Below are positions 1,329-58,416 of a stretch of DNA of 64,000 nucleotides, piece by piece. Within the stretch, counting starts at the first letter, position 1, and every line of letters starts with the position of its first letter. Both the position numbers and the translations under genes were made by a program. The DNA is taken from NCBI RefSeq assembly GCF_000526375.1, contig NZ_JAFY01000007.1, positions 806,001-870,000 of the forward strand, read 5' to 3'. This stretch comes from Aminiphilus circumscriptus DSM 16581. Lineage in GTDB: Bacteria; Synergistota; Synergistia; Synergistales; Aminiphilaceae. The notes under the pieces were generated by a model, which saw only the letters and a program-made list of their open reading frames with translations, ran no database searches and had not been told where the DNA came from.

Positions 1329-2285
1329 TCAAAAAAAGAAGAATTTCAACAACACAAACGTTGCAAGCATACCACACGCATGAACAATCCAGAAACGAGC
1401 TACGATTTGTGTCTCACTCCAACCCACTAGTTCAAAGTGATGGTGTAATGGACTCATGAGAAAAATCCGCCTCCGGAAACCCCTGATCGCTAGTATTTGC
1501 AGAATCACCGAGATGATCTCGACCAAAAAGAGAAACGACAGTGAAACAACAAGAATGGGAGTACCCGAGAAAATAGCCGTGCTCATGAGCAATCCGCCAA
1601 AGAAATGAGCTCCCACATCCCCCATGAAGATTTTCGCCGGATGTGCATTGTGCCAGAGAAACCCCAAAGCGGTAACCAAACCAGTCATCCCCGCCCAGGA
1701 AACGGCCTTCTCCACATCACCCAATGTAAGAAGTCCCGTAAAAGAGATGACCGCTGCGCCAGCGGCGAGTCCATCCAACCCATCGGTGACATTAAAAGCA
1801 TTGAGAAAACCGACAGATGCGAACGTCAAGAGCATCGCGGCAAGTAAAAATTCCGGACGAAAACCTGGAAAAAATTCCAAATTCTGCGCCGCAACAAACA
1901 ATGACCACGGTAAGCATACTGCGATCTGTGCAAAAAACTTTCCACGACTTGAGAGGCCTTCACTGGAGCGATGCGAAAACTTGAGCCAATCATCAACAAA
2001 TCCCACAAGTCCGGCGGCGAAGGGAAGGCTCCAGATCTCGACAAGAAGCCGCCTCTCCGAAGAGAGGAAGCAAAAAGCAAGGAAACATCCTACAATCGCC
2101 ACGCCGAGAAAAACAACGCCTCCCATTGTGGGCGTTCCACCCTTACGCTCAAGGTGCCCTTGAGGTCCGTACAATTTAAGGAATTGTTCTATTCGTAACG
2201 TTTTTTGTTTTTTCAACCACCATTCCTGCATGACCACATTCAACACAAGCAAACAAACGCCAACAGCAATCGCCGTTATCGTCAT
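1329..2285 (-). CDS. mraY: Phospho-N-acetylmuramoyl-pentapeptide transferase
   Basis: Integral membrane enzyme that moves phospho-MurNAc-pentapeptide from UDP to undecaprenyl phosphate, making lipid I. The 318-residue protein is strongly hydrophobic with about ten membrane segments. It shows the family signatures FVDDWLKF (Mg-binding Asp pair), NAFNVTDGLDGLA, NAHPAKIFMGDVGAH and the C-terminal HHHFELVGWSE. Early PQGHLERKGGTPTMGG is also typical. The start ATG overlaps the murF stop by 4 nt, indicating translational coupling. Length is slightly short of the E. coli enzyme (360) but normal for the family. Confidence 0.96.
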   Translation of the reverse strand: MTITAIAVGVCLLVLNVVMQEWWLKKQKTLRIEQFLKLYGPQGHLERKGGTPTMGGVVFLGVAIVGCFLAFCFLSSERRLLVEIWSLPFAAGLVGFVDDWLKFSHRSSEGLSSRGKFFAQIAVCLPWSLFVAAQNLEFFPGFRPEFLLAAMLLTFASVGFLNAFNVTDGLDGLAAGAAVISFTGLLTLGDVEKAVSWAGMTGLVTALGFLWHNAHPAKIFMGDVGAHFFGGLLMSTAIFSGTPILVVSLSFLFLVEIISVILQILAIRGFRRRIFLMSPLHHHFELVGWSETQIVARFWIVHACGMLATFVLLKFFFF

Positions 2286-54321: not shown

Positions 54322-54674
54322 GGGAATTTCTCCTCGGGCGACTCAAGAACGAGACGTCCCCAGGCGTATCGATAAAGGGTCTCCACAATCTCCGCTTTGT
54401 CGAGGGTTGCAAGAAGGAGTGCCATCTTGGACTCCACGGATTCTCGCAGAAGCCGCTCCTCCTCTTCCACCTCTTTTAAAGACAGTGTTCGTTCCGTTTG
54501 AATATCCTCCAGTGTCCTTACCGCCATTTCCTCCAATTTTTCCAATGCGAGGAGGCGCTCTTTCTCGATGGCATCCTTCTCTCTGAGGAAAAGATCCTCA
54601 TACTCGAGGCGAAGGCTCTCCAGTTCTCGACGGATACGTTCCTGATTTTCAGCGCTTGTTTCCTGTTCTTTCAT
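54318..54674 (-). CDS. V-type ATPase peripheral-stalk G/H-like subunit (second operon)
   Basis: 118-residue, highly charged coiled-coil protein (ERIRRELESLRLEYEDLFLR; LLALEKLEEMAVRTLEDIQT). Called from architecture and from its place immediately upstream of subunit I, matching the first operon. It overlaps the CBS gene end by 26 nt and subunit I by 4 nt. Confidence 0.75.
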   Translation of the reverse strand: MKEQETSAENQERIRRELESLRLEYEDLFLREKDAIEKERLLALEKLEEMAVRTLEDIQTERTLSLKEVEEEERLLRESVESKMALLLATLDKAEIVETLYRYAWGRLVLESPEEKFP

Positions 54675-55128
54675 CGAATGTCTCCGCTTCCATCATGAAT
54701 TCACAGAACGCCCCTCTGTCAATGATCCCCACGAGTTTACCATTCTCCGAAACGGGAAGGCGCTTGATCCGCTTTCGGAGCATGAGATCCGCCACAGTCA
54801 TGAGACTCGTTGTGGGTTCCACGGCAATGAGGTTCACGGACATGAAATCGCTCACCTTTCGGTGAGCAAGAACCTTGAGGCGATCGAGAAAACTTCCCTC
54901 CGAATCCTCAAGGAACGTGCTCTGTGCAAGAACTTCCAGATAGGTGGGAACCGCAGCCCGAAGAATATCCGTCTCAGAAAGATATCCCACCAGATACCAA
55001 TTGTCCCGTACCACAGGGATGCCGGAAATACGCTGAGAATACATGACACGAACCGCTTCCAACACGGAGTCGTCCTCGGCAATCGCCGTCAAATCTCGCA
55101 CCATGAACGCTGCTGCGGGGGTATTCAT
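54649..55128 (-). CDS. CBS-pair protein
   Basis: 159 residues from the ATG at 55128, which overlaps the preceding glycosyltransferase stop (ATGA). Two CBS motifs: AAFMVRDLTAIAEDDSVLEA with QRISGIPVVRDNWYLVGYLS, and VSDFMSVNLIAVEPTTSL with KRIKRLPVSENGKLVGIIDR. Such pairs usually bind adenine nucleotides. Coupled to the second V-ATPase operon, it might sense ATP/AMP for that enzyme; this is inference from position only. Confidence 0.88.
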   Translation of the reverse strand: MNTPAAAFMVRDLTAIAEDDSVLEAVRVMYSQRISGIPVVRDNWYLVGYLSETDILRAAVPTYLEVLAQSTFLEDSEGSFLDRLKVLAHRKVSDFMSVNLIAVEPTTSLMTVADLMLRKRIKRLPVSENGKLVGIIDRGAFCEFMMEAETFDERTGNKR

Positions 55129-56864
55129 TCTTCGTTTCGCACCTTTCCAAGCAAGCCGAACCTCGTTAAAAGGACGGCGAGAGCATAAAGGGGGAGCTTC
55201 ACTATCCGTTTCCACCGCCAAGGTTCCTGAAGAAGACGAAAGAGCCATTCGCAACCGGCGCGTTGCCACCTTTCAGGGGCACGCCTGAGGCATCCTGCAA
55301 AAATATCGAAGCTGCCTCCCACTCCCATGGCAACGAGGGAGCCCAAGGCATCCCGGTGCTCTGAAATCCACAGTTCCTGGCGAGGTGATCCGAGAGCGAC
55401 AAAAAGCAACTTCGCCTTGGAAGCCGAAATCCTTTCACAGATCTCCAAGGAAGCCGCCTCATCAAAAAAACCATCCTCCACTCCGGCAACGAGAAGTTTC
55501 GGATATTTTTCCACGAGGCAGTGCGATGCCTTTTCAGCAATCCCCGGTTTTCCTCCGAGAAAGAAAACAGGCCACCCCTCCCCCGCCGCAAGCCGGCAGA
55601 GTTGCTCCATGAAGTCGACACCGGGAATCCGTTCCTGCACGGGATGGCCCAGGAAATTCATTCCCCAGAAAAGCCCCATGCCATCGGCGATCGCCAGGTC
55701 AGCCTCTCGGAAAACTTTGAACAGCTCCTTGTTTTTCCTGCATTCATAGACAGCGAGCGCATTGGGTGTGACGATGGAAGCAAATCGGCCCTCCTCGTTG
55801 ATCCACATGCGCACCTTTCCGAGAGCATACTGAGTGGAAACGTTGTCCACAGGCACTCCCCAAATCTCCGGCCTGCGCTCCGGCTTATGTTCTTTCACAC
55901 TATAGAGCACGCTCCACACATACAGACCGGCCCCGCAAAGTGCAAAAAAAGCCACCAGCATGCCAGGCCCCTCCGGACTGAGCTGATACGCGGCAGCGGA
56001 AAATCCCAAAGACGCACAGACCACCGCCACGGCCCGGACGGCGCTCGGGTGATCAACACCTTTGTTCACAAGCTTCCGATAGAGGAACATGGTTCCTCCC
56101 CTCTCCTTTTCGTTCCGAAAGGCCCTGCTTATGGCGTTCACCGAGGCTTCCATGAGAGGAACGGCAAAGAGTCCGAGGGGAAGCAGGAGCAAGGTCGAAA
56201 ATGTAACCCCCTTATTCACTCCCATCATGGACGTACCTGCGACGAGGACGCCCCAAAACGCCGCGAGAGGCTGCCCCAAGCGTCGATACATGTGTCCGTG
56301 CCTGCTCCAGAACACGGCAAGCAACGCAAGTCCCCCCGTGCACATGAAGAGGGATTCCTCAAGGAATTGCCCGGAGAAAAGGGTGACACCGCACATGATG
56401 CTCCAGGCCAGAGCCAGGAGATACCCTGTCAGGCCGGAAATATGGTCGAGTTCCTGCATGAGCAGCGGGAAAAGGCCAACCCAGAAGGCTGTAGCAGCAA
56501 TGGAACCCAGGAAGGAAAGATAATGGTACCTGCCGTCGGGAAGCGCGATGAAGCTGATCTGGGGACCAATCAGAGCCAAAACGGCCCCGAGAAGAAAGAA
56601 AAACGGACGGACATCTTTTCCGGAAAACCGTTGATACAGTCCCAGCAATGCCGCCGCAGCCCCCGCAAGAACGACATGTCGCGCTCCGGAACTCCCACTC
56701 CAGAGCGCGACGAGAATCCATCCGCAGATGAGCATGACATCCCGAAGATAGTCATACTGGTCACGGTCGAGAAAGACCCGCAGAAAGCGCTGGGCTAGAA
56801 AAAAGGCGCTCATGATAATCAGCAGTATCGAGAAAGCGAATACCGGCGAGGCCATCGTCTCCAT
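55125..56864 (-). CDS. WecG/TagA-family glycosyltransferase fused to a degenerate WecA/TagO-like membrane domain
   Basis: 579 residues from the ATG at 56864 (AGGAGG 9 nt upstream). Residues about 335-579 are a WecG/TagA/CpsF (GT26) domain: VTPNALAVYECRKNKELF, ADLAIADGMGLFWGM with the presumed catalytic Asp394, RIPGVDFMEQL, VFFLGGKPGIAEKA and LFVALGSPRQELWI. Residues 1-325 are ten or so membrane segments whose order resembles WecA/TagO; LDHISGLTGYLLAL sits where NxxDGLDGLA is expected and LYRKLVNKGVDHPSAV where HLHHRLLxxGxSxxxAV is expected, but the catalytic Asp/Asn and His residues are missing. Probably transfers an N-acetyl-mannosaminyl-type sugar to a polyprenyl-linked acceptor. Confidence 0.85.
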   Translation of the reverse strand: METMASPVFAFSILLIIMSAFFLAQRFLRVFLDRDQYDYLRDVMLICGWILVALWSGSSGARHVVLAGAAAALLGLYQRFSGKDVRPFFFLLGAVLALIGPQISFIALPDGRYHYLSFLGSIAATAFWVGLFPLLMQELDHISGLTGYLLALAWSIMCGVTLFSGQFLEESLFMCTGGLALLAVFWSRHGHMYRRLGQPLAAFWGVLVAGTSMMGVNKGVTFSTLLLLPLGLFAVPLMEASVNAISRAFRNEKERGGTMFLYRKLVNKGVDHPSAVRAVAVVCASLGFSAAAYQLSPEGPGMLVAFFALCGAGLYVWSVLYSVKEHKPERRPEIWGVPVDNVSTQYALGKVRMWINEEGRFASIVTPNALAVYECRKNKELFKVFREADLAIADGMGLFWGMNFLGHPVQERIPGVDFMEQLCRLAAGEGWPVFFLGGKPGIAEKASHCLVEKYPKLLVAGVEDGFFDEAASLEICERISASKAKLLFVALGSPRQELWISEHRDALGSLVAMGVGGSFDIFAGCLRRAPERWQRAGCEWLFRLLQEPWRWKRIVKLPLYALAVLLTRFGLLGKVRNEE

Positions 56865-56938
56865 TGAAAGCTTCCTCCTGCGGTTTTTCGCACGGGCTGT
56901 ACTTCGGCATTCCGTCTGAACATAACACCACATTTTTT

Positions 56939-57138: not shown

Positions 57139-58416
<1,278 letters not shown>

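Follow-up and report, generated by a model that had tools for sequence, protein, structure and literature searches.

The window, a stretch of 64,000 nucleotides from Aminiphilus circumscriptus, contains a gene that almost certainly encodes an inactivated domain of the PNPT fold fused to a glycosyltransferase of family GT26 that is competent by its residues. Both domains are of known kinds, and what is new is the presence of a dead first-step enzyme and a live second-step enzyme in one chain. No description of a pseudo-WecA or of a WecA-WecG fusion was found in the open-access literature searched, and to our knowledge no pseudo-enzyme has been described in the WecA/MraY superfamily. Nearly the whole phylum Synergistota has fixed this dead copy of the preceding pathway enzyme onto the transferase. 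A preliminary description of the same DNA, made from the letters alone, had proposed a WecG/TagA transferase fused to a membrane domain that resembles a dead WecA/TagO, and this proposal is upheld by the PF03808 match, the predicted fold and a residue tally. The open frame given there was correct, while the strand had to be corrected: the gene lies on the minus strand, with the ATG at 56864 and the stop codon at 55125-55127 (Table 1).

Table 1. The fusion gene, the regions and positions discussed in its product, and related or neighbouring features of the window.
Feature	Position in the window	Strand	Basis
Fusion gene, pseudo-WecA membrane domain and GT26 (WecG/TagA/CpsF)	55125..56864	-	Open frame, 579 aa; orthologues in 178/188 Synergistota genomes
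AGGAGG, probable ribosome-binding site of the fusion gene, ~8 nt upstream of the ATG	56874..56879	-	Sequence
N-terminal domain, residues 1-325, predicted MraY/WecA fold, catalytic residues lost	55890..56864	-	PF00953 in f11 orthologues, hhalign, AlphaFold and Foldseek
GT26 domain with C-terminal appendage, residues 335-571	55152..55862	-	PF03808, Foldseek to TagA, conserved catalytic residues (111 orthologues)
Q78-R79, position of the canonical catalytic Asp-Asp pair (loop B)	56628..56633	-	hhalign register
D140-H-I-S-G144, position of DGxDG	56433..56447	-	hhalign register, residue tally
G197-Q198, position of the metal-binding Gly-Asp	56271..56276	-	Residue tally
F260-L-Y262-R263, position of HxHH (loop E)	56076..56087	-	hhalign register, residue tally
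serS (seryl-tRNA synthetase), conserved upstream neighbour of the fusion gene	57139..58413	-	Synteny in relatives
mraY, intact member of the WecA/MraY superfamily	1332..2285	-	PF00953 match; motifs DGLDGLA, FMGD

The sole Pfam domain found in the protein is PF03808, at residues 388-554 (E 6e-63; 212 bits versus a cut-off of 27.4), and the NCBIfam superfamily model TIGR00696 was also reached (174 versus a cut-off of 69). The equivalog cut-offs were missed, both for TarA (NF041710; 146.7 versus 350) and for WecG (NF002980; 151.6 versus 323), and thus the exact sugar is not certain. The residues important in TagA of Thermoanaerobacter italicus map to T366, N368, D394, R412, Q496, E497, R543, R550 and R553 (PMC6493773). 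In 111 distinct orthologues from Synergistota, T366, D394, Q496, R543 and R550 are invariant, and E497 and R412 are present in 109 and 104, respectively; judged by these catalytic residues, the GT26 domain is competent. Like TagA/TarA of T. italicus and Paenibacillus alvei, the transferase has the GT-E fold (TM 0.95 of target), the catalytic Thr/Asp/Gln-Glu and the appendage arginines are common to both, and the transfer of ManNAc to a GlcNAc-PP-lipid is probably the same. However, TagA/TarA are single-domain, peripheral proteins, whereas the fusion has a polytopic pseudo-WecA domain at its N-terminus. At N368, the Asn of a T-P-N motif (window 55761-55763), the orthologues are split cleanly into two states, Asn in 58 and Asp in 53 of the 111, which might mark a difference in the donor sugar.

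For the N-terminal domain of the window protein alone, no significant match was found in Pfam or NCBIfam, PF00953 included, and its profile had no match among the PDB sequences; YVC1_C and Csx18 appeared in the Pfam and NCBIfam searches as chance matches only. With no library match at hand, the likeness to WecA in the preliminary description had been drawn from patterns, and the strings quoted for it, LDHISGLTGYL, MYRRLGQPLAAF and LYRKLVNKGVDHPSAV, are indeed found in the protein, from residues 139, 192 and 261 onwards. The same lack of matches is what could be said for an unrelated membrane protein, a transporter or flippase that is WecA-like by pattern only. This reading is virtually refuted by the PF00953 scores of distant orthologues, by profile comparisons with a negative control and by the fold search. 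In f11, a family related to the A. circumscriptus genome at phylum level only, the N-terminal domains of two out of three members exceed the PF00953 cut-off of 27, with 37.8 and 39.1 bits (the third has 24.1), and the full proteins consist of Glycos_transf_4 and Glyco_tran_WecG, so that the PNPT-WecG architecture is recoverable with Pfam for members of f11. The N-terminal domains of f11 and of the core set form one family (hhalign E 2e-22). A profile of 30 N-terminal domains, compared by hhalign with 17 WecA/MraY-type sequences from Synergistota, yielded a probability of 96.5 and an E value of 8.8e-10 over 225 columns. Weaker values were obtained with close relatives only (probability 78, E 1.8e-5), with a larger core set without f11 (E 0.002) and with all orthologues (E 1.6e-5), and the sequence case thus relies on a balanced alignment and on f11 as an intermediate group. 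The negative control in a parallel comparison set was V-ATPase subunit I, an unrelated family of membrane proteins; it gave E values of 0.2-0.5, which together with the f11 orthologues above the PF00953 cut-off rules out a chance likeness.

The fold search is independent of the sequence case to a degree; the f11 sequences were in its alignment. AlphaFold2 modelled the full protein with a pLDDT of 89.8 and a pTM of 0.71, and the N-terminal domain alone with 90.5 and 0.89. With the full model, Foldseek retrieved TagA and then MraY/DPAGT1. With the model of the N-terminal domain, the first 29 matches in the PDB were all MraY or DPAGT1, with a probability of 1.00, and the next matches had probabilities below 0.2, which rules out a transporter or channel fold. 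Judged by the f11 scores, the profile-profile comparisons and the predicted structure, the domain belongs by descent to the WecA/MraY/DPAGT1 (PNPT) superfamily, and the suspected kinship with WecA is borne out. Neither of the outcomes that the preliminary description had named as refuting it, an unrelated predicted fold or profile hits to another transporter family, was observed.

The multi-pass domain that had been described at residues 1-325 is present, but its helix count had to be amended to ten MraY-like helices plus an eleventh in the model. From the helix order and the comparison with MraY, a topology is predicted with the N-terminus outside, five cytoplasmic loops (A-E), and helix 11 returning the chain to the cytoplasm. 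The distribution of Lys and Arg agrees with this prediction, with the cytoplasmic loops carrying ~10.6 per sequence and the periplasmic ones 2.9. Fold, helix order, the broken helix 9, the periplasmic hairpin and the loop positions of DGxDG and HxHH are common to the domain and to WecA/TagO and MraY (PF00953). Unlike the fusion, these enzymes have kept the active residues, and the fusion carries a GT26 domain in addition.

The role of these catalytic residues in WecA and MraY is established. They were tallied in the 111 orthologues, in the register of the hhalign alignment of the N-terminal domain with WecA/MraY. At the canonical Asp-Asp pair, Asp is present in one and two of the 111, mostly replaced by Gln/Glu and Arg/Lys/His. 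In DGxDG, all orthologues have the first Asp (D140) and none has the second, which is Pro in 91. In place of the metal-binding Asp of Gly-Asp, three have Asp, 52 have Glu, and the remainder have ten other residues. The three His residues of HxHH are found in 2, 0 and 6 sequences, respectively, and its middle position is Tyr (Y262) in all 111. The complete catalytic set is kept in none, and D140 is its only invariant member. The preliminary description had stated that the residues of DGLDGLA, FMGD and HLHH are replaced; this is true throughout the phylum, with the exception of the first Asp of DGxDG. By residue content, the domain is CATALYTICALLY dead, and transfer of a sugar phosphate is not to be expected. 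The losses at Asp-Asp, at the second Asp of DGxDG, at Gly-Asp and at HxHH make it a homologue and not a member of the active WecA/MraY enzyme family, and because the same residues are lost in f11, the inactivation is older than the split of the families examined. An active enzyme with an altered site, in which the N-terminal domain would still transfer sugar phosphate and a single chain would perform both steps, could be argued from the invariant D140 and Y262 and from the frequent Glu at position 198 (52/111) and position 78 (32/111). Nevertheless, we regard it as very improbable: there is no conserved acidic set, twelve different residues occur at position 198 and nine at position 78, and a canonical WecA exists in addition.

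A survey across Synergistota revealed a match to the fusion protein in 178 of 188 genomes, and in 115 of the 116 genomes of good quality. PF03808 was found in 175 of the 188, nearly always as a single copy; the frame is ~560-620 aa long in nearly all cases, with a few shorter frames, three of which begin within 700 bases of the first base of a contig. A search for plasmids found nothing. A separate WecA was likewise matched in 175 of 188 genomes, with intact motifs in the 20 that were read. The wecA gene of A. circumscriptus, the intact-motif copy that the preliminary description had suggested to look for, is situated at C7:714351-715250, next to mnaA and ~146 kb from the fusion gene. Since the chain is fit for the second step only and needs a separate WecA, the earlier term 'single-chain glycolipid machine', taken strictly, is incorrect.

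How GT26 enzymes gain access to a membrane lipid-bound sugar is not settled; in the literature, either a C-terminal appendage is proposed to fold at the membrane or the lipid substrate to retain the enzyme. In our proposal, the N-terminal domain derives from a phosphoglycosyl transferase of the WecA type, has become a pseudo-enzyme and would anchor the GT26 domain at the inner membrane. The acceptor, Und-PP-GlcNAc, would be supplied by the separate WecA with intact motifs, and on the cytoplasmic side the GT26 domain would add ManNAc to it, with UDP-ManNAc provided by MnaA. The old active-site cleft, with the invariant D140 and Y262, would dock polyprenyl-diphosphate-GlcNAc and hand it over in cis to the GT26 site. 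The models leave the relative arrangement of the two domains uncertain (pTM 0.71 for the full protein versus 0.89 for the N-terminal domain).

Whether the domain docks the lipid actively or merely anchors the transferase appears evenly balanced to us, and to call it a 'polyprenyl-lipid-binding scaffold', as the preliminary description did, goes beyond the evidence. A plain membrane anchor, holding the transferase at the membrane with no specific ligand, would be compatible with the loss of the catalytic residues, and the fusion would provide permanently the membrane contact that other, peripheral GT26 enzymes need for activity (PMC6493773). It is nonetheless rather unlikely, as D140 and Y262 are conserved in 111/111 orthologues, which is unexpected for a bare anchor. 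The domain is under constraint, as indicated by the correlation of the identities of the two domains between orthologues (r 0.86; means of 41% for the N-terminal and 50% for the C-terminal domain). Loops A, C and D, helices 8-9 and the periplasmic hairpin are highly conserved, and helices 1 and 11 are the least conserved parts; the conserved cytoplasmic loops and helix 8 beside variable helices 1 and 11 speak against an anchor alone and make a retained cleft likelier. The conservation of the periplasmic hairpin, however, counts against the docking proposal, since it is not accounted for by a docking cleft on the cytoplasmic side.

Precedents from other GT26 enzymes favour the docking of Und-PP-GlcNAc by the pseudo-WecA domain. 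TagA of T. italicus needs a membrane-binding appendage for activity (PMC6493773), and lipid I reportedly keeps enterobacterial WecG, a GT26 enzyme, at the membrane (reviewed in PMC12212991). The likeness to the fusion lies in a membrane residence that is tied to the lipid substrate; WecG is retained by a short C-terminal helix together with the lipid, whereas in the fusion a dedicated domain may do so.

The lipid might instead be handed over in trans, if the N-terminal domain paired with genuine WecA and thereby placed the GT26 domain beside the WecA site. Members of the WecA/MraY superfamily form dimers, with MraY-type proteins pairing with themselves, and nearly all genomes with the fusion also have WecA. 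This co-occurrence is uninformative, since both genes are near-universal, and helices 1 and 10-11, which we take to be the dimer side of MraY, are among the less conserved ones, so that such a partnership seems quite improbable. A related arrangement exists in eukaryotes, where DPAGT1 (ALG7), a protein of the PNPT fold, works next to the second-step transferase ALG13/ALG14. DPAGT1, however, is an active and separate protein, in contrast to the PNPT domain of the fusion, which is inactive by its residues and covalently joined. With the dead domain and the transferase joined in one chain, mutations could separate acceptor binding from transfer.

In the A. circumscriptus genome, the PF03808 search found no GT26 protein besides the fusion, which is therefore most likely the TagA step of a route to a pyruvylated wall polymer, with the sugar and the tether role deduced from gene content. 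In P. alvei, a pyruvylated ManNAc-GlcNAc lipid precursor is built by MnaA, TagA and CsaB (PMC6030368). The steps of the TagO-MnaA-TagA-CsaB-LCP route with SLH proteins are all represented in the genome (wecA, mnaA, CsaB family, LCP, SLH). A CsaB-family match is present in 175 of the 188 Synergistota genomes, in 122 of them, including A. circumscriptus, above the curated cut-off; about a third of the matches are below it, which counts against the route. A protein of the LytR-CpsA-Psr (LCP) family with a LytR_C domain is encoded at L211:1901-3226 (C7 ~781.4-782.7 kb). An SLH protein (L209:1562-3175; C7 ~201,060-202,675) has a signal peptide, an SLH domain with TRYE and a long C-terminal part that ends in Phe; this part is likely a beta-barrel, judging from the sequence, and the protein would then be an OmpM-like stalked porin and the reader of the wall polymer. 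Binding to pyruvylated wall polymer is known for OmpM-type proteins of some diderm Terrabacteria, with OmpM acting as a tether of the outer membrane (PMC10628300). The product of the fusion would most likely be pyruvylated by CsaB and ligated by LCP, and the resulting wall polymer would be gripped by SLH/OmpM porins, thereby tethering the outer membrane.

A ManNAc-GlcNAc wall-polymer route is rather probable in our opinion. For the explanation as a whole, in which a dead WecA docks the acceptor, the fused transferase performs the TagA step and the polymer serves as a tether, belief and doubt are about equal. Doubt slightly outweighs confidence for the proposal that the dead site still binds its ancestral product, Und-PP-GlcNAc, and passes it on in cis as a committed step of the outer-membrane tether polymer throughout the phylum. 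The fusion gene is in any case a near-universal component of the envelope biology of Synergistota, a diderm phylum that has been little studied. It should be noted that an LCP protein, as in the attachment of wall polymers in Gram-positive bacteria, occurs here in a diderm phylum. The CsaB-family match lies in a frame of 911 codons (L208:115-2847; C7 ~51.1-53.8 kb), of which residues 589-853 only are covered by the Pfam match; the protein may be shorter, if begun at the nearest Met, or its N-terminal part may be another domain.

Confinement of the fusion to Synergistota is provisional, with Acidobacteriota, the phylum of Granulicella, as the other phylum sampled: no PNPT fusion was found among the readable GT26 frames of 149 genomes. 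Two of eight longer GT26 frames from Acidobacteriota were read (L191:1565-2923 and L197:1522-2748), and in both TagA is followed by an apparent STAS domain. Within Synergistota, the fusion gene is set among housekeeping genes (riboflavin, serS, V-ATPase) and outside any polysaccharide cluster, which counts against the proposed envelope role. It lies behind serS wherever its position was checked, f11 included, and the order uvrC-ribD-ribE-ribBA-ribH-serS-fusion is common to the loci compared, those of f11 sharing the part upstream of the fusion. Phylum-wide conservation of the fusion in a fixed gene order argues that it is not due to chance. Downstream, a CBS-domain gene and V-ATPase genes follow in many families among these loci. 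In the window, a CBS-domain-like gene at 54649-55269 on the minus strand has a frame that overlaps the fusion gene at its 3' end, and the V-ATPase genes come after it; a regulatory tie to the V-ATPase is possible, and this neighbourhood recurs in several families.
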